Notes under the pieces: model-generated
The model's database searches: none
Seen by the model: only the letters and a program-made list of their open reading frames with translations
What the model was told of the DNA's origin: nothing
Position numbers and translations under genes: made by a program
Shown here: positions 4,652-40,107 of the stretch, piece by piece
Position numbering within the stretch: position 1 is the stretch's first letter
How the letters are laid out: each line of letters opens with the position of its first letter
Assembly (NCBI RefSeq): GCF_002556545.1
Contig: NZ_CP022685.1
Span: forward strand, 3,596,001-3,660,000
Direction of reading: 5' to 3'
DNA: 64,000 nucleotides
From: Streptomyces formicae
Lineage (GTDB): Bacteria; Actinomycetota; Actinomycetes; Streptomycetales; Streptomycetaceae

Positions 4652-6133
4652 ATGAGGCCCTCGGTGAAGCGTCTGGTGATCGCGTCCGTCGCGGGGAGCG
4701 TCGTGCTCGGCGGCGTCCTGGTGCTGCTGCCCTCCTCGGACGGGAAGTCGGCGCCGCCCGCGCTCGGGCCCGCCGGACGCGCCATGGTGGCCGTGGGCGC
4801 GGGCGTCCCCGCTGCCCTGCCCGATCTGACGGCGCTCATCGGGGAGCGCGAGGCGCAGGTGCGGGCCCACCCCCGCGACGACCAGTCCTGGGCGGTGCTC
4901 GGCTCGGCGTACGTCGCCCGGGGCGTGCGGACCGCCGACGTGGCGTACTACCCGAAGGCCGAGCACGCCCTGCGCGCCTCGCTCAAGGCCAGGCCGCGCG
5001 GCAACGCCGAGGCCCTGACGGGGCTCGCGACGCTGGCCAACGCCCGGCACGACTACCGTGCCGCCCGCACCTGGGGCGAGCAGGCGGTCCGGCAGGCGCC
5101 GAAGCGGTGGACGGCGTACCCGGCGCTGATCGACGCCTACAGCGGGCTCGGCGACGCCAAGGCGGTGGGCAGGGCGCTGGAGTCCCTCCAGGAACTGGGT
5201 TCGGGCCCCTCGGTCATGACGCGGGCGGGGCAGGTCTACCGGGACCGGGGCTGGCGCGAGGACGCGGGCGCCGCGCTCGCCGACGCGGCGGCGCTCGCCG
5301 AGGCCCCGGCGGAGAAGGCGGCGTGCCTGTACCGCGTCGCCGAGCTCGCCTGGGAGCGGGGCGAGCCGACGGAGGCGCTGCGCTACTACGACGCGGCGCT
5401 CGCGGCCGACCCGGAGCACCACCCCTCCCTCGCGGGCCGGGGCCGTGCCCTCGCCGCGCTCGGCCGCTCGTCGGACGCGCTACAGGCCTACCGTTCGGCA
5501 CTCGCCAAGCAGCCGATGCCCGAATACGCCTTGGAACTGGGCGAGTTGTACGAGTCGCTGAAGCTGGCCCCGGCGGCACGCGCGCAGTACGACGTGCTGC
5601 GGGCGCGGGTGCGGCAGGAGAGCGCGGACGGGGTGAACAACGAGCGCGTGCTCGGTCTGTTCGAGGCGGACCACGGGGACGCGGACGCGGCAGTGGAGCG
5701 CCTCACCGCCGAGTACAAGCGGCACGGCAGCCCCGCGACGGCCGACGCGCTCGGCTGGGCACTGCACCGCTCCGGCGACGGCGAGGCGGGCCTGAAGCTG
5801 GTCACGAAGGCGATGGAGAAGGGCCCGCGCAGCGCCCTGTTCGCCTACCACCGGGGGCAGATCGAGCGGGAGCTCGGCGAGTACGGCGCGGCGCGACGAC
5901 ATCTCGGCGAGGCGCTGCGCCTCAACCCCTTCTTCTCCCCGCTCTACGCCCCCGCGGCACAGGAGGCCCTGACGGCCCTGGGCGACCCCCCGGAGGGCGG
6001 CCCGGAGGAGATGTACGCCCCGGCTCCACCAGTGGCGCCCCTTAAGGGGCGCGGGGAACTGCGCGACAAGCCACAACGGCCCGCAGCCAACGCACTCAGA
6101 GAACCGAGGTCCCGATCAACCCGTTCCGGGTGA
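4652..6133 (+). CDS. Membrane-anchored tetratricopeptide-repeat protein
   Basis: The 493-residue protein has one N-terminal membrane segment (about residues 6-26) followed by several TPR units, for example WAVLGSAYVARGV, AEALTGLATLANAR and HPSLAGRGRALAALG. The topology suggests an extracytoplasmic scaffold for protein interactions; nothing indicates a partner. The ATG at 4652 directly precedes the membrane helix. There is no clear ribosome site, so the start is moderately sure. The last 30 or so residues are encoded by a Streptomyces intergenic repeat (see 6034-6088) and do not look like TPR sequence. The 3' end overlaps the convergent nitrile hydratase alpha gene by 38 bases. Confidence 0.82.
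   Translation: MRPSVKRLVIASVAGSVVLGGVLVLLPSSDGKSAPPALGPAGRAMVAVGAGVPAALPDLTALIGEREAQVRAHPRDDQSWAVLGSAYVARGVRTADVAYYPKAEHALRASLKARPRGNAEALTGLATLANARHDYRAARTWGEQAVRQAPKRWTAYPALIDAYSGLGDAKAVGRALESLQELGSGPSVMTRAGQVYRDRGWREDAGAALADAAALAEAPAEKAACLYRVAELAWERGEPTEALRYYDAALAADPEHHPSLAGRGRALAALGRSSDALQAYRSALAKQPMPEYALELGELYESLKLAPAARAQYDVLRARVRQESADGVNNERVLGLFEADHGDADAAVERLTAEYKRHGSPATADALGWALHRSGDGEAGLKLVTKAMEKGPRSALFAYHRGQIERELGEYGAARRHLGEALRLNPFFSPLYAPAAQEALTALGDPPEGGPEEMYAPAPPVAPLKGRGELRDKPQRPAANALREPRSRSTRSG
6034..6088. repeat. Streptomyces dispersed intergenic repeat inside a coding 3' end
   Basis: The segment starts with a perfect 9+9 palindrome (6035-6052, GCGCCCCTT then AAGGGGCGC) and continues with CGGGGAACTGCGCGACAAGC and CGGCCCGCAGCC. 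From memory, this is the consensus of a very abundant short repeat at gene ends in Streptomyces genomes. Here it lies inside the last codons of the TPR gene and ends just before the stop codon of the convergent alpha gene. Confidence 0.65.
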
Positions 6134-6683
6134 CAAGACCGGCCAGTTCCTCCTCGGCGAGAGCCCCCGTGCCAGCAGGCCGTCGAGGCAGCACCAGATA
6201 CCGCGTCTCCGCACTGGAGTCCCAGACGGTGACAGCCACCGTGGACGGCAACTCGACCCCGAACTCCCGGAGAACCTCAAGAGGCTCCCGCACCACCCGG
6301 GACCGGTACGCCTCGCTCTTGTACCAACTCGGCGAGGGCCCGAGCAGCCGCACCGGGTAGCAGGAGCACAGGGTGCAGACCACGACGTTGTGGGTGTCCT
6401 CCGTGTTCTCGACGACCCGCAGCCGCTGGGGCTGGACTCCCCCTGCCGCGTAGCCGAGTTCGGCCACCGCGGCGGTCCCGTCGGCGAGCAGCCGCTCCTT
6501 GTAGGCGGGGTCGGTCCAGGCCCGCGCGACGACCCGGGCACCGTTGAGCGGGGTAGCGCCGCTCAGGAAGGCGTCGAGCATCTCGTCGAGCGCGGCGCCG
6601 ACGACGACGGCCCGGTCCTCCAACAGGGTTTCCAGGCGCCGTACTTGGCGTGAGATCAGCGCGTCCGCGTGCGTACCGCTCAT
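6096..6683 (-). CDS. nthA: Nitrile hydratase alpha subunit, cobalt type
   Basis: The 195-residue protein hydrates nitriles to amides as part of the NHase complex. The metal-binding motif VCTLCSC is intact; Thr in the third position is characteristic of the non-corrin cobalt class, whereas the iron class has Ser. Upstream, ARAWTDPAYKERLLADG and the GGVQPQRLRVVENTEDTHNVVVC lead-in match the alpha family. The length is close to that of normal alpha subunits. The ATG at 6683 overlaps the stop of the preceding beta C-terminal piece as ATGA, so translation is coupled. It is the last gene of a three-gene unit. A toyocamycin-type nitrile hydratase or thiocyanate hydrolase is the closest architecture. 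The substrate is unknown. Confidence 0.92.
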   Translation of the reverse strand: MSGTHADALISRQVRRLETLLEDRAVVVGAALDEMLDAFLSGATPLNGARVVARAWTDPAYKERLLADGTAAVAELGYAAGGVQPQRLRVVENTEDTHNVVVCTLCSCYPVRLLGPSPSWYKSEAYRSRVVREPLEVLREFGVELPSTVAVTVWDSSAETRYLVLPRRPAGTGALAEEELAGLVTRNGLIGTSVL

Positions 6684-6967
6684 GACGTCCCGTCCTCCGG
6701 GTTCTCCAAGTAGCTCTCCCACAGGTCGAGTACGACGTGGTGATCGCCCTCGCCCCACAGCTCGCGCGCCGCGAACCGCACGGCGTAGACCTGCTCGACG
6801 GGCGCGTCGTCCCTGCCCTGCGAGCGGACGTCGGCCAGCGGATGGCGGCCCTCGGGCTCGACGACCACGCCGTGCTTGCCGCGGGCGTAGCGCGGCAGGC
6901 GGGTGTGGTGGGGCGGGTCGTGGCGCGCGGTGCGCACGCGGGCGCCGGGCCTGAAGCGGTCAGTCAT
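6680..6967 (-). CDS. Nitrile hydratase beta subunit, C-terminal half as separate protein
   Basis: The 95-residue protein matches only the C-terminal SH3-like domain of NHase beta: FRPGARVRTARHDPPHHTRLPRYARGKHG, then VYAVRFAARELWGEG and the VVLDLWESYLE end. The corresponding N-terminal half is the next gene upstream, so the normal beta chain of about 220 residues is made as two polypeptides. The start overlaps the upstream stop by 8 bases (6960-6967) and the stop overlaps the alpha start by ATGA. Such tight coupling argues for a functional three-subunit enzyme and against a decayed beta gene. Confidence 0.9.
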   Translation of the reverse strand: MTDRFRPGARVRTARHDPPHHTRLPRYARGKHGVVVEPEGRHPLADVRSQGRDDAPVEQVYAVRFAARELWGEGDHHVVLDLWESYLENPEDGTS

Positions 6968-24454: not shown

Positions 24455-24523
24455 ACGCACTTCAGCGAGACGAGACGTATTGCATCGCTTCAACGCATGC
24501 GCCATCATGGCGACACCGGGCAG

Positions 24524-24540
24524 CGAGACGAAACGTCTCG
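24524..24540. promoter_or_regulatory. Perfect 7-3-7 operator-like dyad
   Basis: CGAGACG-AAA-CGTCTCG lies 31 bases before the hydrolase start. A dyad of this size suits an Xre or TetR-type dimer; the MmyB-type regulator next to the SDR gene is the natural candidate. Confidence 0.6.
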
Positions 24541-24571
24541 TTGTCACGTCGCGGATGTGAGGAGCGGTGCC

Positions 24572-25477
24572 ATGAATCAGCGATTCGTCCAGGTCGACCC
24601 GGCGGTGCGGTTGTGGTCCGAGGAGCGCGGCGACCCCCGGAACTCCACCCTGCTGCTGATCATGGGGGCCGGGGCGTCCGGCCTGGGCTGGCCGGAGGAA
24701 CTGGTCGACGCGTTGGCCGCGCGTCACCGCGTCATCCGCTACGACCACCGGGACACCGGCCGCTCCAGCCTGAGTTTCGACACGCACCCGTACCGCGTCG
24801 TCGACCTCGCGTCGGACGCGATCGCCGTCCTCGACGCGTACGAAGTGGAACGGGCGCACGTCGTCGGTCTCTCCCTGGGCGGCATGCTGACCCAACTGCT
24901 GATCGCCGATCACCCCGAACGGCTGCTCAGCGCGACAGTGATGGGGGCCGGTGCCCTCAGCAGCACCCCTCTGTCGCACCCGGACGGCTCCCGAACTCCC
25001 GTGGACCGACTGCCGTCCATCGACGCACGGGTACTCGAACTGTGGTCCCGCCCCCACGAGGACCGTGGCCTCGAGGGCGAGCTGGACCACCGGGTGGAGC
25101 ACTGGCGGCTGCTCAACGGCGACCAGATCCCCTTCGACCCCGAGGAGTTCCGGGCCCTGGAGCGCCGCGTCATCGAGCACGCCGGGCGCTACGAGGCACC
25201 CATGGTCCACGGGCGCGCGGACCACTCCGGCATGGACCGCACCGACGAACTCGCGCGCACCGAGGTGCCGACCCTGGTGACCTCCGCCCCGGCCGAGCCC
25301 GTCTTCCCGCCGCCGCACCCCGACCATCTCGCCCAAGTGATCGCCGGGGCGCGGCTGGTGGAGATACCGGGCATGGGGCACGCCCTGCCGCGCGCGGTCC
25401 ACGCGCCTCTGGCGGCGGCGGTTCTCGCCCACACCCGGGCGGTGGACGCCCGCGTCCGGCCGGGGGCGGCGTCCTGA
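24572..25477 (+). CDS. Alpha/beta hydrolase
   Basis: The 301-residue protein has the hydrolase fold landmarks: oxyanion region IMGAGASGLGW, YDHRDTGRSS, nucleophile elbow GLSLGGM (Ser near 98), and the C-terminal catalytic His in IPGMGHALP. The usual acid-bearing motif (GxxDPxxP-like) reads SAPAEPVFPPPH, so Glu may replace the expected Asp. It resembles aclacinomycin methylesterase-type hydrolases, but the substrate is unknown. GAGGAG precedes the ATG. It is divergent from the SDR gene and shares its control region. Confidence 0.88.
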   Translation: MNQRFVQVDPAVRLWSEERGDPRNSTLLLIMGAGASGLGWPEELVDALAARHRVIRYDHRDTGRSSLSFDTHPYRVVDLASDAIAVLDAYEVERAHVVGLSLGGMLTQLLIADHPERLLSATVMGAGALSSTPLSHPDGSRTPVDRLPSIDARVLELWSRPHEDRGLEGELDHRVEHWRLLNGDQIPFDPEEFRALERRVIEHAGRYEAPMVHGRADHSGMDRTDELARTEVPTLVTSAPAEPVFPPPHPDHLAQVIAGARLVEIPGMGHALPRAVHAPLAAAVLAHTRAVDARVRPGAAS

Positions 25478-25506
25478 CCTCGATCCCCTGGTAGGCGCAG
25501 CGCGAC

Positions 25507-26110
25507 TTACTCCTTCACCCCACCCCAGCTCCCACCCACACCCGCCTCTCCCCCGCAGCACCCGACCACGCCCGGCTCTCCCTGGCCCCCCACTCGGCTC
25601 TGCGCGCCCGACCACGCCCGGCCTCGCCCAGCTCCGCCCGGTCCGCGCGCCCGCCTGTGCCTGGCCCCACCCGGCCTTGCGCGCCCCACCACGCCCGGCC
25701 CCGCGCGCCCGACCATGCCTGGCCCCACCCGGCCCTGCGTGCCCGGCCATGCCCAGCCCTGCATGCCCGACCACGCCCGACGCCTCGTGCCCGACCATGC
25801 CTGGCCCCACCCGACCCCGCGCACCTGGCCCCACCCGACCCCGCGTGCCCGGCCGTGCCTGGCCCCACCCAGCTCCGCCCGGCCCGCAGGCCCGACCATG
25901 CCCGCCCCCGCGCACCCGACCATGCCCAGCCCTGCGTGCCCGACCACACGCCCGACCATGCCCGGCCCCACCCAACTCCGCCCGGCCCGCAGGCCCGACC
26001 GTGCCCGACCCCTCGTGCCCGACCATGCCTGGCCCCACCCGACCATGCCCGCCCGACCACACCCAGCTCCGCCCGACCATCTCCGGCCCCACCCAGCTCC
26101 GCCCGGCCGC
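25507..26110. repeat. C-rich imperfect repeat tract, type A
   Basis: About 600 bases are built from shuffled copies of short blocks such as GCCCGACCATGCC, TGGCCCCACCC, CAGCTCCGCCCGG and CCCGCAGGCCCGACC. The + strand is extremely C-rich and almost free of stop codons in several frames, so long open frames appear on both strands but none has a ribosome site or protein-like composition. I regard it as non-coding. It lies downstream of the hydrolase gene. Confidence 0.8.
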
Positions 26111-26890
26111 TCCCGGCCGGAAACAGCCCGCCCTCGCGGGCGGGGGCGGGTGGGAGGAGAGGTCAGCGCCACGACACAGGCCCACACCCGGCCCTGCTCG
26201 GCCCTGCGTGCCCGACCACGCCCAGCTCCGCCCGGCCCTGCCCTGCCCTGCCCGGCCGCTCCCAGCCGGAGACAGCACGCCATCGCGGGCGGGGGCGGGT
26301 GGGCGGGAGAAGGCGTCAGCGGCCCGGCGCAGGGCCATACGTGCCCCGGCCCCAAGCAGACGCCCCGCCGAAGCGACCCACCCGCCCAGACACGGAACGG
26401 AGCCGGACAGAACCCGAAACCTTCGGCCGAGGCCGACCCACCCCCACGAACGACATCCACCCAGCCGCATGCGGCACACCATCGCGGGCGGGGGCGGGCG
26501 GGCGGGAGAAGGCACCAGCGGCACGGCACAGGCCCACACCCGGCCCTGCCCGGCCGCTCCCAGCCGGAGACAGCACGCCCTCGCAGGCGGGGGCGGGCGG
26601 GTGGGAGGAGGCACCAGCGGCACGGCGCAGAGCCACACGCGCCCCGGCCTCAAGCAGACAACCTGCCGAAGCGACCCACCCGCCCAGACACGGAGCGGAA
26701 CCGGACAGAACCGGAAACCTTCGGCCGAGGCCGACCCACCCCCACGAACGACATCCACCCAGCCGGAGACAGCACGCCATCGCAGGCGGGGGCGGGCGGG
26801 CGGGAGGAGGCACCAGCGGCACGGCACAGAGCCACACGCGCCCCGACCCCAAGCAGACAACCCGCCGAAGCGCCCCACCCGCCCAGACAC
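26111..26890. repeat. Repeat tract type B: five units each with a G-quadruplex motif
   Basis: There are two nearly full units of about 200 bp (about 26264-26462 and 26561-26760) and three partial ones (about 26111-26200, 26463-26560, 26761-26890). A unit begins CAGCCGGAGACAGCACGCC, passes a G-run block, then GCACCAGCGGCACGGC, AAGCAGACAACC, CGACCCACCCGCCCAGAC, ACCTTCGGCCGAGGC, and ends ACGAACGACATCCACC. The G-run blocks at 26138-26154, 26287-26307, 26486-26506, 26589-26605 and 26788-26804 each fit the canonical G3+N1 quadruplex pattern on the + strand. No gene is credible here. Confidence 0.85.
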
Positions 26891-27030
26891 GGAGGCGTCA
26901 ACGGCACAGCGCAGAGCCACACCCGACACGGCGCAGAGCCACCCGGCACGGCACAGAGCCACACCCGGCACGGCGCAGAGCCACCCGGCACGACACAGAG
27001 CCACCCGGCCCAGCACAGAGCCCCACGCAG
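26891..27030. repeat. Repeat tract type C: 17-21 bp minisatellite
   Basis: About seven imperfect tandem copies of CACCCGGCACGGCACAGAGC-like units, derived from the end of the type B unit. The tract ends abruptly before ordinary sequence at about 27030. Confidence 0.8.
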
Positions 27031-27275
27031 GACCGTGCATGCCCCAGCCCGCCGCAGGCCCCCGCCCCGACGACGTCCATCCGTGCGGTGATCTACGGAG
27101 CTCTGTTACACGGCCTACAACTAGCCGCAATGGTGGGTGTTTTACCTTTATTCAGCACTCGCCGGACGGCAGAGAGCAAAAGGGCTCAACCACGCGGATC
27201 CACCCGACCAGTGGACCCGCGGACCCGTGCCGTGCGAGAGCACGCCACCGCATCGTGAAGGGGAACCACGCCGTT
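27031..27275 (+). promoter_or_regulatory. Upstream region of the secreted-protein gene
   Basis: After the repeats the sequence becomes A/T-richer (27105-27160, including TTTTACCTTTATTCAGC), which is a plausible promoter for the gene at 27276. No consensus -35/-10 pair was assigned. Confidence 0.4.
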
Positions 27276-29596: not shown

Positions 29597-29745
29597 TTGG
29601 CCGTCTCGCCCCCCCCAACTGCTCCTGTCCGGCTGTCAGTTAGCCGTTCGATTCTTGTAACGAGCCGGGATCTTGCCCGGTCGCCCCGACATACTCCGGG
29701 AACGGCACCTCGGTGCCACGAGACCACTCGGTTCCAGGAGGAGAC

Positions 29746-32700
29746 TTGCGCGACCACGTGAAGAGAGCCTGCGCGGCGACCGTCGCCACGGCCGCCGCCA
29801 TGGCGCTCACGGCGGGCATGACGGGCCCCGCGTCGGCCCAGCGGAACGGGCCCTTACGGCCCGGCGACACGGGTGCACGGGCGACCGGCACCGCACAGGA
29901 GCACCACAGGATCACCCTCATCACCGGCGACCGCGTCACCGTCGACGCCAAGGGGCGTGCGGTCGGGTTCGCCCCGGCGAAGGGCCGCGAGCACATACCC
30001 GTCCGCACGCACCGCTCGCCGAACGGCCACACCCTCGTACTCCCCGCGGACGCCCAGCGCCTGGTGGCCGACGGGCGCGTCGACCAACGGCTCTTCGACA
30101 TCACGGAGTTGAGCAAGAAGCGCAACCGCGCGGCGCAGTCCAAGGGCCTGAAGGTGATCGTCGGCTACCAGGGTTCCGCCCAGGCCGACGCGAAGGCCGA
30201 CGTCCGGGCCGCCGGGGACACCACCGTCCGCCGGTCCCTCAAGACACTGAACGCCGACGCCGTCACCACCCCGAAGCAGGACGCGGGCGACCTGTGGAAG
30301 GCCCTCACCGGCGAGCGCGGCGGCGCCCGCACCACCGCGTCCGGCATCGCGCACGTCTGGCTCGACGGCACCCGCAAGGCGACCCTGGACAAGAGCGTCA
30401 AGCAGATCGGCGCCGACAAGGCGTGGAACGCGGGGTACGACGGCAAGGGCGTGAAGATCGCCGTCCTGGACACCGGCGTGGACGCCACCCACCCCGACCT
30501 CAAGGACCAGGTCGCCGCCGAGAAGAACTTCACCGGCGCCGCCGACGCCAAGGACCGCTTCGGGCACGGCACGCACGTCGCGTCCACCGTGGCGGGCACC
30601 GGCGCGAAGTCCGGCGGCACGTTCAAGGGCGTCGCGCCGGGCGCCAAGCTGCTCAACGGCAAGGTCCTCGACGACGACGGATTCGGCGACGACTCCGGCA
30701 TCGTCGCGGGCATGGAGTGGGCGGCGGCCGAGAAAGCCGACGTCGTCAACCTCAGCCTCGGCGGCGGCGACACCCCCGGCATCGACCCCCTCGAAGCCAC
30801 CGTCAACAAGCTCTCCGCCGACCAGGGCATCCTCTTCGCCATCTCGGCGGGCAATGACGGAACGCCCGGTTCCGTCGGCTCCCCCGGCAGCGCCGACGCC
30901 GCGCTCACCGTCGGCGCGGTCGACGACAACGACAAGCTCGCCGACTTCTCCAGCCAGGGCCCGCGCGTCGGCGACGGCGCCATCAAGCCCGACGTGACCG
31001 CCCCCGGCGTGGACATCACCGCCGCGGCCGCCCCCGGCTCCGTCATCGAGAAGCAGGTCGGCCAGAACCCCGAGGGCTACCTGACGATCTCCGGCACCTC
31101 CATGGCGGCGCCGCACGTCGCGGGCGCCGCCGCGCTGCTCAAGCAGCAGCACCCCGACTGGAAGTACACCGAGCTCAAGGGCGCCCTCACCGCGTCCACC
31201 AAGCCCGGCAAGTACACCCCGTTCGAGCAGGGTTCGGGCCGCATCGCCGTCGACAAGGCCATCGAGCAGTCCGTGATCGCCGACCCCGTGTCGGTGAGCT
31301 TCGGTACACAGCAGTGGCCCCACACCGACGACAAGCCGGTCACCAAGAAGGTCACCTACCGCAACCTCGGCAAGGACGCCGTCACCCTCGGCCTCACCCT
31401 CGACGCCACCGGGCCCAAGGGCGACCCGGCCCCCGCCGGGTTCTTCACGCTCGGCGCGGACAAGGTCACCGTCCCCGCGGGCGGCACCGCCTCCGTCGAC
31501 CTGACCGCCGACCCCAAGCTGGGCGCGGCGCTCGACGGCGCCTACTCCGCGTACGTCGTGGCGAGCGGCGGCGGCCAGTCCGTGCGCACCGCGGCGGCGA
31601 TCGACAACGAGGTCGAGCGGTACGACGTGACGCTCAAGTTCATCGGCCGCGACGGGAAGCCCACCCCGAACCACCAGAGCTCGTTCTCCGCCATCACCGG
31701 GGCCGACAAGGGCCTCAACCTCTTCCCCAACGACCCGTCGGGGACCGACACCTTCCGCGTGGCCAAGGGCAGTTACCTGCTCGACTCGGCGATCTACGTC
31801 GACCCCGACAACGGTGACAAGGGCGTCGACTGGCTCGCCGGGCCGACCCTGTCCGTCGACAAGGACACGACCATCACCGTCGACGCCCGCACGACGAAGC
31901 CCGTCGACATCACGGGCCCCGACCCGTCCGCCGACCTGGCGTTCCTGGACGGCCGTTACTCCTACGAGGGCTACGAAATGGGCGCCCTCAACATCAGCTC
32001 CTTCCAGAGCATGCGCACCGCCCACCTCGGCCCCGAGGTGCCCAAGGGCCTCGGCCAGCAGTGGCTCGGCACGTGGCGCAAGGGCGCGGACACGCGGTAC
32101 GACATGCTCATCGGCGGCGAGGTCAAGAAGCTCGCGACCGGCTACACGCGGCACCTGAAGCGCGCCGACTTCGCCACCCTGAAGGTCGGCATGGGCGCCT
32201 CCTCACCCGGCCGCACGGGCGCCCTGTCCGTCGCCGGATACCTGCCGCTGGCGGGCGGCATCTCGCCGATCCTCCCCGCGCAGAAGCTGCCGCGCACCCA
32301 GACGGTGTACGTCTCCGCGCTCGACGGCGTGCGGTGGGGCATCGACTTCGACCAGTACGGCGACAAGAACGCGGACGGCGACCCCGCCTGGGACGGCGCC
32401 TACCGGATGCTCCCGGAGCCCTTCACCGCGGGCCGCGCGTACGCGAAGTCCTTCAACACCGGCGTGTTCGGCCCCGCCCTCGGCAAGGACAGGGGCGGCA
32501 TCTTCCGCGAGGGCGACAAGCTCGGCGGCAGCCTCGCCGTCGTCGCCGACGGCAAGGGGCACACGGGCTGGAGCGCGTACGCGTCGGCGAAGTCGACCCT
32601 GTACCGCGACGGCACGAAGATCGCCGAGAACGGTGACCCGCTGACCGGCGAGGAGACGTTCACGGTCCCGGCGGAGGACGCCGCGTACAAGCTCACGACC

Positions 32701-33099
32701 ACCGTGAAGCGCGACCCGAAGGTCGCCGCGGTCTCGTCGCGGGTCGACGCGAGCTGGACGTTCCGCTCCAAGAGGGTGACCGGACAGACCCAACTCCCTG
32801 CGTCCACCGTCCGCTTCACCCCCGAGCTCGACCTGAGGAGCCGGGCCGCCGCGGGCGCGACCCAGTCCGTCCCGGTCGAGGTCCAGGGCTCGGCGGCGGG
32901 TGCGGGGAACCTCAAGTCCCTCGCGGTGTACGTCTCCTACGACGCGGGGCGCACCTGGCAGAAGACGCCGGTCCGGGGCGGGAAGATCTCGGTGAAGAAC
33001 CCGGCGAAGGGCAAGGGCATCGCCTTCCGCGCGAAGGTCACGGACAAGGGCGGCAACACGTCGACGCTGTCCGTGTACGACGCGTACTACGGCAAGTAG
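29746..33099 (+). CDS. Secreted subtilisin-like serine protease (S8), large
   Basis: The 1117-residue protein starts at a TTG with AGGAGG 4-5 bases upstream; a GTG at 29758 is the alternative. A Sec signal peptide (RDHVKRACAATVATAAAM... ASA) is followed by a propeptide of about 170 residues. The catalytic triad is Asp242 (IAVLDTGVD), His274 (GHGTHVAS) and Ser452 (GTSMAAPH), with the oxyanion Asn in SAGND. About 650 residues of beta-rich C-terminal domains follow, the last with KSLAVYVSYDAGRTW. Such proteases are exported nutrient-scavenging or developmental enzymes. A terminator hairpin follows the stop. Confidence 0.93.
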   Translation: MRDHVKRACAATVATAAAMALTAGMTGPASAQRNGPLRPGDTGARATGTAQEHHRITLITGDRVTVDAKGRAVGFAPAKGREHIPVRTHRSPNGHTLVLPADAQRLVADGRVDQRLFDITELSKKRNRAAQSKGLKVIVGYQGSAQADAKADVRAAGDTTVRRSLKTLNADAVTTPKQDAGDLWKALTGERGGARTTASGIAHVWLDGTRKATLDKSVKQIGADKAWNAGYDGKGVKIAVLDTGVDATHPDLKDQVAAEKNFTGAADAKDRFGHGTHVASTVAGTGAKSGGTFKGVAPGAKLLNGKVLDDDGFGDDSGIVAGMEWAAAEKADVVNLSLGGGDTPGIDPLEATVNKLSADQGILFAISAGNDGTPGSVGSPGSADAALTVGAVDDNDKLADFSSQGPRVGDGAIKPDVTAPGVDITAAAAPGSVIEKQVGQNPEGYLTISGTSMAAPHVAGAAALLKQQHPDWKYTELKGALTASTKPGKYTPFEQGSGRIAVDKAIEQSVIADPVSVSFGTQQWPHTDDKPVTKKVTYRNLGKDAVTLGLTLDATGPKGDPAPAGFFTLGADKVTVPAGGTASVDLTADPKLGAALDGAYSAYVVASGGGQSVRTAAAIDNEVERYDVTLKFIGRDGKPTPNHQSSFSAITGADKGLNLFPNDPSGTDTFRVAKGSYLLDSAIYVDPDNGDKGVDWLAGPTLSVDKDTTITVDARTTKPVDITGPDPSADLAFLDGRYSYEGYEMGALNISSFQSMRTAHLGPEVPKGLGQQWLGTWRKGADTRYDMLIGGEVKKLATGYTRHLKRADFATLKVGMGASSPGRTGALSVAGYLPLAGGISPILPAQKLPRTQTVYVSALDGVRWGIDFDQYGDKNADGDPAWDGAYRMLPEPFTAGRAYAKSFNTGVFGPALGKDRGGIFREGDKLGGSLAVVADGKGHTGWSAYASAKSTLYRDGTKIAENGDPLTGEETFTVPAEDAAYKLTTTVKRDPKVAAVSSRVDASWTFRSKRVTGQTQLPASTVRFTPELDLRSRAAAGATQSVPVEVQGSAAGAGNLKSLAVYVSYDAGRTWQKTPVRGGKISVKNPAKGKGIAFRAKVTDKGGNTSTLSVYDAYYGK

Positions 33100-33140
33100 C
33101 CCGCAACGCGGCACGCACGGCAGCGCGCCGCGCGCGTGAG

Positions 33141-33173
33141 CAGAGGGTGACCCCGCCTCGGGGTCACCCTCTG
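33141..33173 (+). terminator. Terminator of the S8 protease gene
   Basis: Perfect 14-bp stem (33141-33154 with 33160-33173) and a 5-base loop, 41 bases after the stop codon, followed by TTCG. Confidence 0.8.
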
Positions 33174-33306
33174 TTCGTCGGCCTCTGTTCGTCCGCCCTC
33201 GCGTCAACTCCCCTTCACGACTGCGCGGTTGCCCGGACCCCCGGCCCGTCTCGGCGCCACAATGGCGTCAGGGCGACGCGCGCGAACCAGGGGCGAGAGG
33301 TACCGG

Positions 33307-34209
33307 GTGGAGGCTGGGGACTACATGAACGCGGCGAGCAACGCCGTGGCCGGTGGCGCCGTCGCCGTCGCCTGGTGGCAGGCCCGGGTGGCCAAGGAGG
33401 CGACCGACGCCCAGCTGAAGGCGCAGCGCGAGCAGCAGGACCGGGCCAGGGGCGAGCGGGACCGGGCGGACTGCCCGCAGTTCATCATGCAGGAGACCGA
33501 CGTCCGCAGGGGCGAGGGCGAAGTCGTCGAGGTGGTCGCCGTCCTCAAGCAGACGGCGGGCTCGGACCTGGACGAGGCCAGGGTCACCGTTCACCTGAAC
33601 CACGAACAGGCCCATGTCATCGGCGGCGCCGACGACGGCACGTTCCTCTGGCTGCACACGGGCACCAACGCCCTACGGCATCTGAAGCTGCTTGCGCAGG
33701 ACGTGCACCGCGGACACGGCGGGCAGCTGGAGATCCGCGCCGACCTCGTGTGCCGCGAGACGGGCGGCGGGCGGACGTGGACGTGCCGGGTGTTCGGCTA
33801 TCCGCAGGCCGAGTGGGAGCAGATCCTGGGGAGCGTGGCATCGCCGTCGCCCTCCGGCCCGGTGGGCGACACGGAGGGCGCGGAGGACGTGGGCGACGCG
33901 GACGACGTGCACGGCCTGGTCGCCCCCGAGGGTCCCGACGCCCCGGCCGCCAGGAGTGCCGTGCGCGTCACGCCCACGCCCCCGGGGACCACGCCCTTCC
34001 CGGTCTCGCCTCGCCGCCGGGAACGGCTCCCCTCCCTGGCGCACTGGCGGACGACCCTGCCCCACCCGGCCGACGACGCCAGTCGGCCGCCGTACCCCGT
34101 CGTCCTGCAACCGACCCTGGTCCACCCCGAGGACGTCGGCCTGCTGGCCGTCACCCCCGTCCTGACGAGCAGCGCGGGGCGCCGCGCCCCGGAGGACGAC
34201 ATCTGGTGA
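33307..34209 (+). CDS. Hypothetical protein with N-terminal membrane segment
   Basis: The protein is 300 residues from the GTG at 33307, which has GAGG 6 bases upstream; an ATG at 33325 (MNAASNAVAGG) is the alternative. A short hydrophobic segment (AVAGGAVAVAWWQA) is followed by a charged coiled-coil-like region (KEATDAQLKAQREQQDRARGERDRAD), a beta-rich middle (VVAVLKQTAGSDLDEARVTVHLNHEQ... RTWTCRVFGYPQAEWEQIL) and an Asp/Pro-rich tail. I do not recognise the family. The last 305 bases are the first copy of a duplicated segment. Confidence 0.7.
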   Translation: MEAGDYMNAASNAVAGGAVAVAWWQARVAKEATDAQLKAQREQQDRARGERDRADCPQFIMQETDVRRGEGEVVEVVAVLKQTAGSDLDEARVTVHLNHEQAHVIGGADDGTFLWLHTGTNALRHLKLLAQDVHRGHGGQLEIRADLVCRETGGGRTWTCRVFGYPQAEWEQILGSVASPSPSGPVGDTEGAEDVGDADDVHGLVAPEGPDAPAARSAVRVTPTPPGTTPFPVSPRRRERLPSLAHWRTTLPHPADDASRPPYPVVLQPTLVHPEDVGLLAVTPVLTSSAGRRAPEDDIW

Positions 34210-34679
34210 CCCATCCGGTGACCCGGCCGGCGCCCCCTCAGGACGCCGGGTCGATCCGCGCCTCGTCCAGTCGCGCCAGGATCGCGTCCACGGTCTCCGC
34301 CACCGTCAACTCCGAGCTGTCCAGCCAGAGTCCGAGCTTCGGGGTCGTCTCGCGCAGGCCGGTGTCCAGGTCCTCGACCGTCCACGCGCCGTAGCCCGTC
34401 TTGCCGCGTCCCGCCTCGCGGGCGGCGACCGCCTCGGGGCGCGGGGCGAGGACGACGACGTACGCGGGACGGGTCCTGATCAGCTCGACGTACGTCTTCA
34501 GGGGCGGGCCCAGGATGACGTCCTGGACGATCGCGGTGAAACCCGCGTCGGCGTACGCGTCGGCCGTGGAGGCGGAAAGCCGGTAGCGGAGCAGGAGTTG
34601 GGCCTCCGCCTCGCCCCCGGCGTCGGGTTCGTACGCGACGCCGCCGGAGACGATCATCCGCCGGTAGACGTCCCCGCGC
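33905..34679. repeat. 775-bp tandem duplication, copy 1
   Basis: The segment covers the 3' third of the hypothetical gene (to its stop at 34209), a 28-base gap and the 3' part of the kinase gene on the other strand. It is repeated directly after itself with an offset of exactly 775 bases. Every open frame inside is repeated with identical translation, so the copies appear identical. Confidence 0.92.
34238..34679 (-). pseudogene. Broken kinase copy lacking the P-loop
   Basis: The frame matches the last three quarters of the kinase encoded at 35013-35579 from HVRGDVYRRMI to the stop, but the N-terminal P-loop is missing; upstream of the junction the frame enters antisense sequence of the hypothetical gene. 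It can only yield a chimera without nucleotide-binding ability. It arose from the tandem duplication. Confidence 0.88.
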
Positions 34680-34984
34680 ACGTGCACGGCCTGGTCGCCC
34701 CCGAGGGTCCCGACGCCCCGGCCGCCAGGAGTGCCGTGCGCGTCACGCCCACGCCCCCGGGGACCACGCCCTTCCCGGTCTCGCCTCGCCGCCGGGAACG
34801 GCTCCCCTCCCTGGCGCACTGGCGGACGACCCTGCCCCACCCGGCCGACGACGCCAGTCGGCCGCCGTACCCCGTCGTCCTGCAACCGACCCTGGTCCAC
34901 CCCGAGGACGTCGGCCTGCTGGCCGTCACCCCCGTCCTGACGAGCAGCGCGGGGCGCCGCGCCCCGGAGGACGACATCTGGTGA
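34680..34984 (+). pseudogene. 3' fragment of the hypothetical gene
   Basis: Identical to the last 305 bases of the gene at 33307-34209 (from VHGLVAPEGPD to the stop), now without the 5' part and without a start of its own. It is a by-product of the duplication. Confidence 0.88.
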
Positions 34985-35454
34985 CCCATCCGGTGACCCG
35001 GCCGGCGCCCCCTCAGGACGCCGGGTCGATCCGCGCCTCGTCCAGTCGCGCCAGGATCGCGTCCACGGTCTCCGCCACCGTCAACTCCGAGCTGTCCAGC
35101 CAGAGTCCGAGCTTCGGGGTCGTCTCGCGCAGGCCGGTGTCCAGGTCCTCGACCGTCCACGCGCCGTAGCCCGTCTTGCCGCGTCCCGCCTCGCGGGCGG
35201 CGACCGCCTCGGGGCGCGGGGCGAGGACGACGACGTACGCGGGACGGGTCCTGATCAGCTCGACGTACGTCTTCAGGGGCGGGCCCAGGATGACGTCCTG
35301 GACGATCGCGGTGAAACCCGCGTCGGCGTACGCGTCGGCCGTGGAGGCGGAAAGCCGGTAGCGGAGCAGGAGTTGGGCCTCCGCCTCGCCCCCGGCGTCG
35401 GGTTCGTACGCGACGCCGCCGGAGACGATCATCCGCCGGTAGACGTCCCCGCGC
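34680..35454. repeat. 775-bp tandem duplication, copy 2
   Basis: Second copy of 33905-34679. A third, 13-base partial copy (ACGTGCACGGCCT, 35455-35467) follows in the intact kinase gene. The same 13 bases stand at the start of copy 1 and at the internal junction, which identifies them as the recombination site. Confidence 0.92.
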
Positions 35455-35579
35455 ACGTGCACGGCCTTGTCGAGCCGCTCGGCAAGGGCCTGCGCCACCG
35501 TGGACTTGCCGGACGCCATGATGCCGGTGATGACGACGACGCCACCGGGGTCAGAGGTGCTGGTAGTCATGACGCCCAT
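35013..35579 (-). CDS. P-loop kinase (AAA_33/zeta-like)
   Basis: The 188-residue protein has a Walker A motif GIMASGKST near the N-terminus, then HVRGDVYRRMI and a lid region with PRPEAVAAREAGRGKTGYG. The layout is that of small nucleoside or phosphate kinases of the AAA_33 group, related to chloramphenicol phosphotransferase and gluconate kinases; the substrate is unknown. Neither the ATG at 35579 nor the ATG at 35570 has a clear ribosome site. The 3' part lies in copy 2 of the duplication, so this is the intact kinase gene. Confidence 0.85.
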   Translation of the reverse strand: MGVMTTSTSDPGGVVVITGIMASGKSTVAQALAERLDKAVHVRGDVYRRMIVSGGVAYEPDAGGEAEAQLLLRYRLSASTADAYADAGFTAIVQDVILGPPLKTYVELIRTRPAYVVVLAPRPEAVAAREAGRGKTGYGAWTVEDLDTGLRETTPKLGLWLDSSELTVAETVDAILARLDEARIDPAS

Positions 35580-35674
35580 CGTGCCAGCGCACCCGACGCC
35601 ACCGCCTCCGGATTACCGGCGGACCGCCGCCGCGCGGGCCGTCCCTCACACCGGGCACCTGCTCGCCCTCCGCG

Positions 35675-35863
35675 TCACCAGGCCCTCAGAAGAGCCACCG
35701 CACCGGCCACCGAGAAGATCGCCCCGCCGACCCGCACGGTCGTCACGCTCTTCGGCCACATCCGATGCTGGTAGGAGAGCATCTGGAACCAGTCGGCCGC
35801 ACGGCACACGTTGGTGGCAAGCACCGTGCCGCCCACGAAGGTGAACAGCCCCCAGCCCGCCAC
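35675..35863 (-). CDS. Small membrane protein, 62 residues
   Basis: Starts GTG (AGWGLFTFVGGTVLATNVCRA) and has two hydrophobic stretches (about 2-18 and 45-60) separated by a short basic loop (YQHRMWPKSVTTVRV). It follows the xanthine-dehydrogenase-like operon by 15 bases on the same strand. No family was recognised. Coding is supported by position, strand and plausible two-helix topology only. Confidence 0.55.
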   Translation of the reverse strand: MAGWGLFTFVGGTVLATNVCRAADWFQMLSYQHRMWPKSVTTVRVGGAIFSVAGAVALLRAW

Positions 35864-35878
35864 GACCGCCCGCCCGCG

Positions 35879-38188
35879 CTACGCCGACGGCGCGGCCACC
35901 GCCGCCTGCGGGCGGATCGGGAGGCGGTTGACCGGGCGGCCCGTCGCCGCGCGGACCGCCGATGCCACGGCCGCGGGGGACGTCACCACCGGGACCGCGC
36001 TCGCCGCCTTCGCGCCGAACGGGGCGACCACGTCACGCTCCTCGACCAGCTTCACGATGCGGATGTCGGGGGTGTCCAGGGCCGTGGGCAGGGCGTAGCC
36101 CGTCAGGTCGGGGTGGCGGACGATGCCGCGCGGGGTGCGCAGGTTCTCCGTCAGTGCCGCGCCCACGCCCTGCGTGACGCCCGCCTCGATGCGGACCCTC
36201 AGCTGGGCGGGGTTGAGGATGCGGCCCACGTCCTGGGCGACGGCCAGTTCCACGACGCGGACCGAGCCGATCTCGATGTCGACGTCGACCACCGCGCGCA
36301 CCGCGCAGAACGCCATGCCCACGAAGGCGTCGCCCTGTCCTGCCTCGTCGAGGGGCTCGGTCGGGTGCGGGCGGCACTGGGCCGTGGCCCACAGTTCCTT
36401 GCCGTCCATCGCCTCGGTGACGGTCGTGGAGAGCACCCCGTCGTACGAGGTGATCTTGCCGTCGGTGATCTGGAGCAGCTCCGTGGACATGCCGAACTTG
36501 TGGGCGAGCGGCTGGAGGAGCTGGGTGCGCACCATCTTCGCCGCGCGCTCCACCGCGCCGCCCGACACCCAGGTGTGGCGGCCGCGACAGCTCGGGCCCG
36601 CCGGTGGCTGGTCCGTGTCGACGGGAGCCACCCGCACGTCGTCGATGCCGAGCGTCTCCTGGACGATCTGGCGGGCCAGCGTGGTGAAGCCCTGGCCGGT
36701 CTCGACGGCCGCGCAGATGACCGTGGCCGCGCCGTCGTGGACCTTCACGGTGGCCGTGGAGACCTCGTCCGTGCCCTCGGCGCCCAGGAGCTGGACCATG
36801 CCGAGGCCGTAGCCGACGCCCCGGCGGACGGCGGCGGGCTCGCCCGCGCCCTCGGGCCCGCCGGGCAGCAGCCACTCGTCCTCGGGGGTGTCCTTGGGCA
36901 GCTCGGGCAGCGGGAAGTCCCGTACGGCGGCGAGGAGTTCGGCCACCGGGGCGGGACAGGTCACCGTCTGCCCGGTGGGCAGGATGTCGCCGGTCGCCAT
37001 GACGTTGCGCAGGCGCAGCTCCGCCGGGTCGACGCCCAGCTTCTTTGCGATCTTGTCCATCTGGGCTTCGTACGCCGCGCACACCTGCATGGCGCCCTCG
37101 CCCCGCACGTGGCCGGAGGGCGGGTTGTTCGTGCGTACGGCCCAGCCCTCGATGAAGGCGTTCGGCACGACGTAGGGCCCGCAGGCGAAGGAGACCGCCG
37201 CCGCGAGCGCCTCCGACGAGGTGTCCGCGTACGCGCCCGCGTCGAGCAGGATCTGCGCCTCGACCTTGACGAGCCTGCCCTCGGCGTCCGCGTGGTGGCG
37301 GTAGCGAAGGAGCGTGGGGTGGCGGTGCGCGTGGCCGAGGAAGGACTCCTCGCGGGTCGCGGTGAGCTTGACGGGGCAGCCGGTCCGCAACGCGAGGAGC
37401 CCGACGGGCAGTTGGAAGCTCGCGTCCTCGCGGTCACCGGTCGCGCCGGGCACCCCGGTGACGACGATCTTCACCTGGTCCGGGGCGAGCCCGAAGCAGG
37501 CGGCGGCCCTGTCCCGGTCGGCGTGCGGATCGGTGGAGGCCAGGTACAGCTCCACTCCCCCGTCGGGACGCGGCACCGCGAGCGCGGCCTCCGCGCCGAT
37601 GGGCGCGGGGTCCTGGCGGCCGATGCGGTAGAGCCCCTCGACGACGAGCTCGCCCGCCGCCTCCGGGTCGCCGTGGCGCAGCGGGATGTGCCGGATCAAG
37701 TTGCCGTCGGGGTGCAGCGGTTCGGCCTCGAAGGCCTTCTCCGGGTCGGTGACCGGTTCGAGCACCTCGTACTCGACGATGATCGCGGCGGCCGCCATCC
37801 GCGCCGTGTCCGGGTGGTCGGCGGCGACCGCGGCGATGGGCTCGCCGTGGTGGCGTACGACGTCGGAGGCAAAGACCGGGCGGTCGGCGACCGCGCGGCC
37901 GTGCAGCGCGTCCCCCGGCACGTCCTCGTGCGTGACGACGGCGCGGACGCCGGGCATCTCGCGCGCGTGCGTGGTGTCGATGGAGACGATGCGGGCGTGC
38001 GCGTGCGGCGAGCGGAGCACCGCCGCCCACAGCAGGCCCTCCGCCCACAGGTCCGCGGCGTACGGGAAGGTGCCCTCGGTCTTGGCGCGGCACTGCGCCG
38101 ACGGCAGTGACGAGCCGATGCCGTGCGGCAGTTGCTCGGGGCCCTGCGGCACGGCGGAGCTGGTCGCGGTGGCGGCTTCGTTGCTCAC
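35879..38188 (-). CDS. Molybdopterin-binding subunit, xanthine dehydrogenase family
   Basis: The 769-residue large subunit would carry the molybdenum cofactor and oxidise a purine or aldehyde-type substrate. Domain 1 (AQCRAKTEGTFPYAADLW... LRSPHAHARIVSIDT) and the cofactor-binding repeats (GQGFTTLARQIVQETLG, SGGAVERAAKMV, GDAFVGMAFCAVRAVVDVDIEIGSV) are in family order. At the C-terminus the usual GAKGVGEPP, whose Glu is the catalytic base, reads GAKAASAVP, so the Glu is absent. The GTG start overlaps the previous stop as GTGA. It forms one enzyme with the [2Fe-2S] and FAD subunits upstream. Confidence 0.9.
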   Translation of the reverse strand: MSNEAATATSSAVPQGPEQLPHGIGSSLPSAQCRAKTEGTFPYAADLWAEGLLWAAVLRSPHAHARIVSIDTTHAREMPGVRAVVTHEDVPGDALHGRAVADRPVFASDVVRHHGEPIAAVAADHPDTARMAAAAIIVEYEVLEPVTDPEKAFEAEPLHPDGNLIRHIPLRHGDPEAAGELVVEGLYRIGRQDPAPIGAEAALAVPRPDGGVELYLASTDPHADRDRAAACFGLAPDQVKIVVTGVPGATGDREDASFQLPVGLLALRTGCPVKLTATREESFLGHAHRHPTLLRYRHHADAEGRLVKVEAQILLDAGAYADTSSEALAAAVSFACGPYVVPNAFIEGWAVRTNNPPSGHVRGEGAMQVCAAYEAQMDKIAKKLGVDPAELRLRNVMATGDILPTGQTVTCPAPVAELLAAVRDFPLPELPKDTPEDEWLLPGGPEGAGEPAAVRRGVGYGLGMVQLLGAEGTDEVSTATVKVHDGAATVICAAVETGQGFTTLARQIVQETLGIDDVRVAPVDTDQPPAGPSCRGRHTWVSGGAVERAAKMVRTQLLQPLAHKFGMSTELLQITDGKITSYDGVLSTTVTEAMDGKELWATAQCRPHPTEPLDEAGQGDAFVGMAFCAVRAVVDVDIEIGSVRVVELAVAQDVGRILNPAQLRVRIEAGVTQGVGAALTENLRTPRGIVRHPDLTGYALPTALDTPDIRIVKLVEERDVVAPFGAKAASAVPVVTSPAAVASAVRAATGRPVNRLPIRPQAAVAAPSA

Positions 38189-40107
38189 GCCTGGCCTCCG
38201 TCCCGGCCGTACGGCCCCTGGGATCCTTCGGGTTCCTCGTAGATCCCCTCGTGCGCGGCCTGGTGGACGCCGCCCGCGCCGGGGCCCGCCTGGTGCGGGA
38301 TGCGGGCCTGGTCGCCCGGCTCGTCCGGCGACTCCGCGGCCGAGGCGGCCGCCGCTGTCGCCTCGCGCTCGGCCACGACTTCCTGGACGGCGTCGAGCAC
38401 GCCCCGGTAGCCGGAGCAGCGGCAGAGGTTGCCGCACAGCGCGCGGCGGGTCTCCAGGTCGGTGGGGGCGGGGTTGCCTTCGAGCAGGTCGTGCAGGGTC
38501 ATGGCCATGCCCGGTACGCAGAAGCCGCACTGGACCGCGCCGCACGCGGCGAGCGCGCGCTGCACGTCGGAGGGCTGCCCGTCCTCGGCGAGGCCCTCGA
38601 CGGTGCGCACCTCGCTGCTCGCGGTGGTCGCCGCGGGCACCAGGCAGGAGGCGACGAGCCGACCGTCCACCTGGACGTTGCACGCCCCGCACTCGCCCTG
38701 CGAGCAGCCGTCCTTGGCCCCGGCGAGACCGAGGCGCTCGCGCAGCACGTAGAGCAGCGACTCGCCGATCCAGGCATCGGTGACGGGTCGGTCGGCGCCG
38801 TTCACCCGCAGGACGTACGAGACGAGGGGGTGGTCGTCGTGGAGGGGGGCGGAGAGGATGGCCGGTTCGGCCGGTTCCGCCTCGGGTTCGGCGTCCGGCT
38901 CGGGCTCGGGTCCGGTGGGCTCCTCGGCGACGGCCTCGGGGGCGGGCGCGGGGGCCTCGGCCACGTCGTCGACGGGCGGTTCCGGCTCCACGAACTCGTC
39001 GTGCGCGTCCTGCTGTTCGAGAACGGGCTGGTCGAGGGCGGGCTCGGCGAGGACGGGCTCGGCGAGGACGGGCTGGTCGAGGGCGTCCGCTTCGGCGGGC
39101 CCGGGCTCCGGGGCCTCCTGGAGTTCCTGAAGCTCCTGCCGGACCTCCTGGGCCTCCTGGACCTCTTGGGCCTGGGGCTCCTGGACCTCCGGGTGCTCGG
39201 CGGCCTCGCGCTCGGCGGCACTCGGCACCCGCACGGCCCGCAGCAGCGTCGTCTGCTCGAACCGGTTCTCCGGGGGGCCCTCCTGTACCGGGGCGTGACT
39301 CTCCGGAGCCCGGTACTCCGGAACGTGCGGCTCGGAGACGTGCGGCTCTGAGACGTGGTGCTCCGGAACGTGGTGATCCGGTACGTGATGTTCCTGGGGC
39401 GGGGCCGTCACCTCGGGCTCCGGCTCCAGGACGGGCGCCTCCTGGGCCTGCGCGCCCCAGGGCGCACCGGCCCCCGCCCCCGTCGCCCAGGGCGCGGCCG
39501 CGCCGCCGGGCAGGGTCGCGGGCGGCGTGCCGCCCCACGTGGCGAGCGACGAGGTCGTGAACTCACCCGATTCGTCCGGAAGATCACCATCGGCGACCGG
39601 GATCGACCACTGGCCGGTGACGTCGGAAGCGGCCTCGTGCGGCTGTTCGTGCGGCTGCTCGTACCCGTGCGCGTGCCCGTGTCCCTGCGTGTGCCCGTGC
39701 TCGGGCCCGTAGCCCTGCTCCGCGGCGTGCGCCTCGGGGAAGCTCCACTGTCCGGTCGCCCGGGGGTCGTACCCCTGGCCCTGGACGTGGCCCTGGGGCT
39801 GGCTCTCCGGGACCTGCCGGCTCTGCGCCGTGCCCGCCTCGGGCCAGCTCACCGCCTGGCCGCCGCCCATCGCTCCGGTGATCTCGGGCGGCATGACCCA
39901 CGTGCCCGTGGCCGCCGGGTCGGTGGCGTCCGCGGTGGTCGGGGTGACCTTTATCTGCGGCGGCACATAACCGTGCCCCGGCGCGGCCAGCGGAACGTCC
40001 AGCATGCCCTCGGGGAGCTGCACGAACGCCGTCGCGTCCGAGTCGTACTCGCCCTGCGGGTGCGGCTGCCAGCCGCCGCCGTTGTGGGTGTTCTGGTCGT
40101 CGCTCAC
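38185..40107 (-). CDS. [2Fe-2S] subunit of xanthine dehydrogenase family, with long disordered N-terminus
   Basis: The 640-residue protein has its catalytic part only in the last 190 or so residues: a plant-type cluster (CSQGECGACNVQV then a fourth Cys) and a helical second cluster (CGAVQCGFC ... CGNLCRCSGYRGV). Family members are normally about 160-200 residues. The extra 440 or so residues are disordered: three TG[T/Q]W-type motifs (ATGTWVMPPE, ATGQWSFPEA, VTGQWSIPVA), His/Gln/Gly-rich blocks, HHVPEHHVSEPHV-like repeats and Glu/Pro repeats. No stop or alternative start separates the parts. The GTG at 40107 overlaps the FAD-subunit stop. Confidence 0.87.
   Translation of the reverse strand: MSDDQNTHNGGGWQPHPQGEYDSDATAFVQLPEGMLDVPLAAPGHGYVPPQIKVTPTTADATDPAATGTWVMPPEITGAMGGGQAVSWPEAGTAQSRQVPESQPQGHVQGQGYDPRATGQWSFPEAHAAEQGYGPEHGHTQGHGHAHGYEQPHEQPHEAASDVTGQWSIPVADGDLPDESGEFTTSSLATWGGTPPATLPGGAAAPWATGAGAGAPWGAQAQEAPVLEPEPEVTAPPQEHHVPDHHVPEHHVSEPHVSEPHVPEYRAPESHAPVQEGPPENRFEQTTLLRAVRVPSAAEREAAEHPEVQEPQAQEVQEAQEVRQELQELQEAPEPGPAEADALDQPVLAEPVLAEPALDQPVLEQQDAHDEFVEPEPPVDDVAEAPAPAPEAVAEEPTGPEPEPDAEPEAEPAEPAILSAPLHDDHPLVSYVLRVNGADRPVTDAWIGESLLYVLRERLGLAGAKDGCSQGECGACNVQVDGRLVASCLVPAATTASSEVRTVEGLAEDGQPSDVQRALAACGAVQCGFCVPGMAMTLHDLLEGNPAPTDLETRRALCGNLCRCSGYRGVLDAVQEVVAEREATAAAASAAESPDEPGDQARIPHQAGPGAGGVHQAAHEGIYEEPEGSQGPYGRDGGQA

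Follow-up and report, generated by a model that had tools for sequence, protein, structure and literature searches.

A perfect and probably recent 775-bp tandem duplication bounded by 13-bp direct repeats in the Streptomyces formicae chromosome sequence

Introduction

The closest described counterparts of the locus reported here are the spontaneous duplications of Salmonella Typhimurium LT2, for which the available text of one study (PMC3411829) gives 22 confirmed junctions, five of the eight duplications tested being among them. In that text, every experimentally confirmed duplication had short direct repeats at its endpoints, with 11, 13, 14, 16, or 27 bp of homology at the joint and an inferred cut-off of 11 bp. 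These confirmed duplications were positive with padlock probes, and PCR was negative or not done for the ones tested (PMC3411829). The same source treats same-orientation joints with a small split as deletions and places duplications at a split distance over 5 kb. A second counterpart, described in the accessible part of PMC11111574, is TDAH, a selected tandem amplification with 9-bp microhomology at its borders, which was engineered in E. coli and reached many copies under selection.

Here we describe a 775-bp direct tandem duplication in a Streptomyces formicae genome that consists of one contig of 9,611,874 bp. The stretch of DNA that was analysed, hereafter the window, comprises 64,000 nucleotides (3596001-3660000 of the genome) and has a G+C content of 71.5%; coordinates are those of the window unless another locus or the whole genome is named. 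The duplication resembles the Salmonella set in having direct repeats at its endpoints, and its 13 bp of homology fall within the confirmed range of 11-27 bp, but it differs from that set in residing in a reference chromosome and in being only 775 bp long (PMC3411829). It shares with TDAH a GC-rich border microhomology of similar length; unlike TDAH, it has two copies and carries no sign of selection (PMC11111574). The event is an ordinary, known kind of mutation, of which this is a new instance, and by itself it answers no open question. It is of interest as a clean, natural short-homology tandem duplication of probably young age, in which the two parental sites and the joint can still be read in a chromosome of high G+C content, and as an illustration of how a duplication can create chimeric ORFs while both parent genes are spared. 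A literature search by title and abstract found nothing on this locus.

Results and Discussion

Structure of the duplication

Copy 1 (33905..34679) and copy 2 (34680..35454) abut head to tail in direct orientation and differ at 0 of 775 positions. The initial annotation had proposed a perfect tandem duplication of this length, with coordinates that proved exact, and had named substantial divergence between the copies in advance as one observation that would speak against it; the alignment contained none. At an offset of 775, identity extends without a mismatch over 788 bases (33905-34692 against 34680-35467), the 13-bp repeat described below being included once more at the far end. The duplicated segment starts in a linker of a hypothetical gene, here called gene A (at about residue 226), and ends in a kinase gene just past the part that encodes the P-loop. 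Copy 1 consists of the last 100 codons of gene A, the intergenic gap, and the kinase coding sequence downstream of the P-loop, meaning that the 3' third of gene A and the P-loop-less part of the kinase gene were copied together. Because the segment begins inside one gene and ends inside the other, both outer genes are full length. This agrees with the gene layout proposed initially, in which gene A is whole at the left, the kinase is whole at the right, and a P-loop-less kinase and an A-tail fragment lie between them. The long ORFs on either side encode a subtilase (29713-33099, plus strand) and a molybdopterin-binding dehydrogenase (35879-39538, minus strand). No transposase was found in the ORFs scanned (gene A, the kinase, both chimeras described below, and these two long flanking ORFs), and a pattern scan of 33100-35900, which for promoters covered the sigma-70 type, gave no promoter-like or terminator-like site.

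The two parent genes

Gene A (33307..34209, plus strand) encodes a hypothetical protein of 300 aa when read from GTG 33307, the position at which 7 of its 9 homologues also start; the longest ORF begins at TTG 33229. The protein had no Pfam or NCBIfam match at E 1e-3. An AlphaFold2 model built from ten sequences had a mean pLDDT of 62; averaged in blocks of ten residues, pLDDT was 70-90 across residues 41-200 and mostly under 50 beyond residue 207. In the predicted fold, a helix of about 50 residues at the N-terminus is followed by a beta-strand domain and by a C-terminal tail of low confidence. The family is sparse: nine homologues were found in the protein database, where scoring was confined to the 7995 candidates sharing most words, and the seven that carry names are all from Streptomyces. 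Among the matches listed, the closest homologue carries the label S. formicae (92% across 90% of the query).

The intact kinase gene (35013..35579, minus strand) encodes a 188-aa P-loop kinase that belongs with the AAA_33 / chloramphenicol phosphotransferase-like (CPT-like) kinases. This assignment is based on Pfam profiles above their gathering scores, namely AAA_33 (38.8 bits; cut-off 27), AAA_18 (30.6; 29.4), and CPT (29.7; 22), together with a Walker A motif, GIMASGKS, starting at residue 19. No NCBIfam model scored above its cut-off for this protein, and comparison with solved structures returned two weak matches.

Chimeric reading frames between the parent genes

The kinase remnant (34238..34692, minus strand) retains the C-terminal residues 38-188, with tblastn aligning residues 37-188 at 99.3%, and lacks the Walker A motif. 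It runs in frame into antisense gene A sequence and thereby forms a chimeric ORF of 220 aa (34238-34900, minus strand) that has no Pfam match at E 1e-3; having neither the motif nor a profile match, the remnant does not qualify as an AAA_33 / CPT-like kinase. The headless A tail (34680..34984, plus strand) corresponds to residues 227-326, over which tblastn gave 100% identity, and it is open in frame from antisense kinase sequence, forming an ORF of 128 aa (34598-34984, plus strand) that likewise has no Pfam match at E 1e-3. The idea that the 220-aa ORF is an established gene was rejected, as the best 120 of 1165 database matches all cover 69% of it or less.

It could be argued that the duplication has been selected, either because a useful product is expressed from the chimeric remnant of the kinase or from the additional A tail, or because copy number acts as a switch; that both chimeric ORFs are open (220 aa, minus strand; 128 aa, plus strand) would fit such a role. 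However, open antisense frames are common in the window, and the kinase remnant has no P-loop. In the remnant ORF, G+C at the three codon positions is 0.74/0.50/0.94 over the kinase part but 0.91/0.66/0.77 over the antisense-derived part, which does not follow the pattern of coding sequence. Most of the A tail has low confidence in the AlphaFold2 model, and the chimeric half is absent from those best 120 of 1165 database proteins. With these points against it, we consider selection very improbable. The two inner ORFs are probably by-products of the duplication, which is a caution for annotators, and nothing that we found indicates a function for the duplication itself, which is probably neutral.

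The locus in relatives

Streptomyces sp. WAC 01529 provided the sole other locus (L038) in which both genes could be read as DNA. There, a gene A homologue at 6001-6870 (48% amino acid identity) is followed by a head-on kinase homologue at 7455-6883 (79%), and each is present once. This convergent pair in one relative suggests that the single-copy state is ancestral, and it lends support to the earlier proposal that the duplication originated between two natural short repeats. Of the four direct repeats of at least 11 bp in positions 5701-7800 of L038, three are 11 bp long, and the remaining one, of 13 bp, sits within the kinase end at offset 15. The longest repeat linking gene A and the kinase in this relative is 11 bp (6372/7098, offset 726). 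We also considered recurrence of the duplication in relatives and rejected it for the loci read, the WAC 01529 locus having only one repeat of at least 30 bp within 3 kb, a 45-bp repeat at 10526, away from the gene pair. No repeats above these limits were present in any of 14 fetched kinase loci (L004-L017), in which gene A is absent at the search threshold. The left flank differs between the two genomes, with a tRNA-Cys gene (L038 5874-5946) just upstream of gene A in WAC 01529 versus the subtilase gene at 29713-33099 in the window.

Searching the genus Streptomyces for gene A at E 1e-3 gave matches in 3 of 199 genomes (the own genome, WAC 01529, and one weak match). With the homologue P0003 as query, there were 2 matches in 150 genomes (the own genome and one weak match), and a set of 150 genomes around WAC 01529, which overlaps the other 150-genome set, also gave 2 (WAC 01529 and the same weak one as with P0003). 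One locus was returned by a collection scan for gene A.

The 13-bp repeat at the endpoints and the joint

The initial annotation had placed a 13-base sequence at the left end, the junction, and the right end of the duplication, and we found ACGTGCACGGCCT at exactly these sites in the window (33905, 34680, and 35455) and nowhere else in it. A count over 1.624 Mb of the own genome, including the window, gave 3 occurrences of this sequence and 0 of its reverse complement. The parental repeat in gene A (33905..33917) lies in the linker DDVHGL, and the parental repeat in the intact kinase gene (35455..35467) lies within minus-strand codons for K-A-V-H-V. The repeat at the novel joint (34680..34692) has kinase sequence on its left and gene A sequence on its right, giving the arrangement of a microhomology junction, in which each parental end carries the short repeat and the joint carries it once. 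Flanking the parental 13-mers, 9 of 20 bases match on each side; on the right, one mismatch is followed by a run of four further shared bases (GTCG), which extends the match to 17/18.

On the kinase side, the 13-mer codes for part of the motif H-[VL]-R-G-D, which is kept in all 15 fetched kinase loci of other genomes (a count in which the three entries of the WAC 01529 locus are taken once, and the four entries of the own locus and a distant own match without the motif, L002, are left out). The full 13-mer was found at the kinase site in 0 of these 15 loci, and the candidate explanation of a conserved hot-spot was rejected for this reason. It was not found in the WAC 01529 locus either. On the gene A side, the 13-mer lies in a variable linker, and the residues DDVHGL recur in one of the nine homologues, P0001, which is labelled S. 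formicae. As far as these comparisons of sequence indicate, the repeat is a lineage-specific coincidence. Given that the 13-mer is found neither in the WAC 01529 locus nor at the kinase site in any of the 15 loci of other genomes, the case for its earlier presence is made by the outer copies at the own locus and by the residues shared with P0001.

Chance homology and the possibility of an artefact

We estimated how often homology of this length would occur at an arbitrary junction. After masking of the duplication and a repeat-rich stretch, which left 60,750 bases of the window, the fraction of junctions with at least 13 bp of homology was ~3.2e-6 among the ~1.6e8 that have offsets of 200-3000 bp. 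These 60,750 bases contain 34 distinct direct repeat pairs of at least 13 bp at 200-3000 bp. The unmasked window contains 124 direct repeat pairs of at least 13 bp at 50-3000 bp, compared with 15-30 in ten third-order Markov sequences, and many of the longest repeats fall in the repeat-rich stretch at 25.5-27.1 kb. Possible substrates for duplication are common, yet a random mis-join would rarely land on one.

This estimate bears on whether the duplication is an assembly or library artefact, that is, whether a locus present once in the cell was written twice through a bad contig overlap, a chimeric read, or a consensus error. The perfect identity of the copies would be expected in that case, as would the unduplicated locus in the one relative read (WAC 01529), but nothing would lead an overlap joined in error to stop at a 13-bp repeat, which only ~3e-6 of junctions would do by chance. 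A template-switch chimera formed at short homology could mimic the joint, but it would have to outvote the correct reads. The signature of an artefact would be a joint without homology and recurrence in the assembly; here, the joint has 13 bp of homology, and 1.66 Mb (17%) of the own genome contained no other exact duplication of abutting units longer than 100 bp. Reads from PacBio sequencing usually span 1.6 kb. If the strain is KY5, this technology was used together with 454 sequencing, since the available text of PMC12551763 names both methods for S. formicae KY5, which it describes as having a single linear chromosome of 9.6 Mb with a G+C content of 71.4%. Taken together, these points make an artefact improbable.

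Origin, mechanism, and age

The best explanation, and in our judgment a highly probable one, is that the duplication is real and recent and arose in a single short-homology event that duplicated 775 bp directly in tandem between two chance 13-bp direct repeats. The product is the outcome that short-direct-repeat annealing would give, by slippage, sister-strand template switching, or unequal exchange. We favour strand slippage as the likely pathway. In this scheme, a 3' end that finished copying the kinase-side repeat in the course of replication or repair would have paired with the A-side repeat on either the sister or the template strand, and the interval would then have been copied again, a process for which RecA would not be needed. 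The product alone does not tell slippage and unequal exchange apart.

A variant compatible with this explanation is that the duplication is real but arose through double-strand-break repair, either by end joining or by unequal sister exchange after a break, rather than through slippage. The product would be identical. Classical end joining needs less homology than 13 bases, and the 13 bases of perfect homology (17/18 with the next bases) point instead to annealing. The accessible part of PMC5124664 reports NHEJ-like genes in Streptomyces ambofaciens, a point in favour of this variant. We regard break repair as a possible but rather unlikely origin.

Whichever of these pathways operated, a short-homology duplication at the 13-bp repeats appears to be recent, one of the two possibilities raised initially. 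The 0 differences over 775 positions place a bound of ~0.4% on divergence by the rule of three. Over residues 227-326, the same 6 substitutions and gain of 2 residues separate P0001 from each of the two copies; as both copies share the own strain's version of the A tail, the copying would be later than the split from P0001, unless conversion has evened the copies. With 788 bp of perfect homology, RecA recombination should be able to collapse or expand the repeat. A perfect repeat of this length should be unstable, suggesting that the duplication is probably young, or that it was fixed by chance in the sequenced stock. One could also imagine a reversible switch, in which the locus moves back and forth between one and two copies through RecA exchange and the P-loop-less chimeric kinase of the two-copy state interferes with the intact kinase, an idea that we consider extremely unlikely.

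Other repeats in the genome

Exact abutting repeats of at least 60 bp in the 1.66 Mb comprise only the 775-bp duplication and an array near 7.706 Mb, which is an exact tandem array of 8-bp units extending over ~194 bp from 7705958 onward (L094). In 0.4 Mb of two other genomes, the units of exact abutting repeats were 16-81 bp. The own genome also has, at ~980.1-980.8 kb (L068), an abutting repeat that is imperfect, with a unit of 336 bp and 266 exact bases, and tandem duplications as such are therefore not unique in this genome. A spaced, near-identical repeat with an offset of 3225 bp and exact blocks of 616 and 291 bp lies at ~808-813 kb (L059). Within the window, the stretch at 25500-27100, which follows an alpha/beta hydrolase gene (24497-25477), is rich in repeats, with units of ~24-82 bp as well as repeats spaced at 199 and 298 bp. 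Both strands of this stretch have long open frames, suggesting that it may be non-coding.
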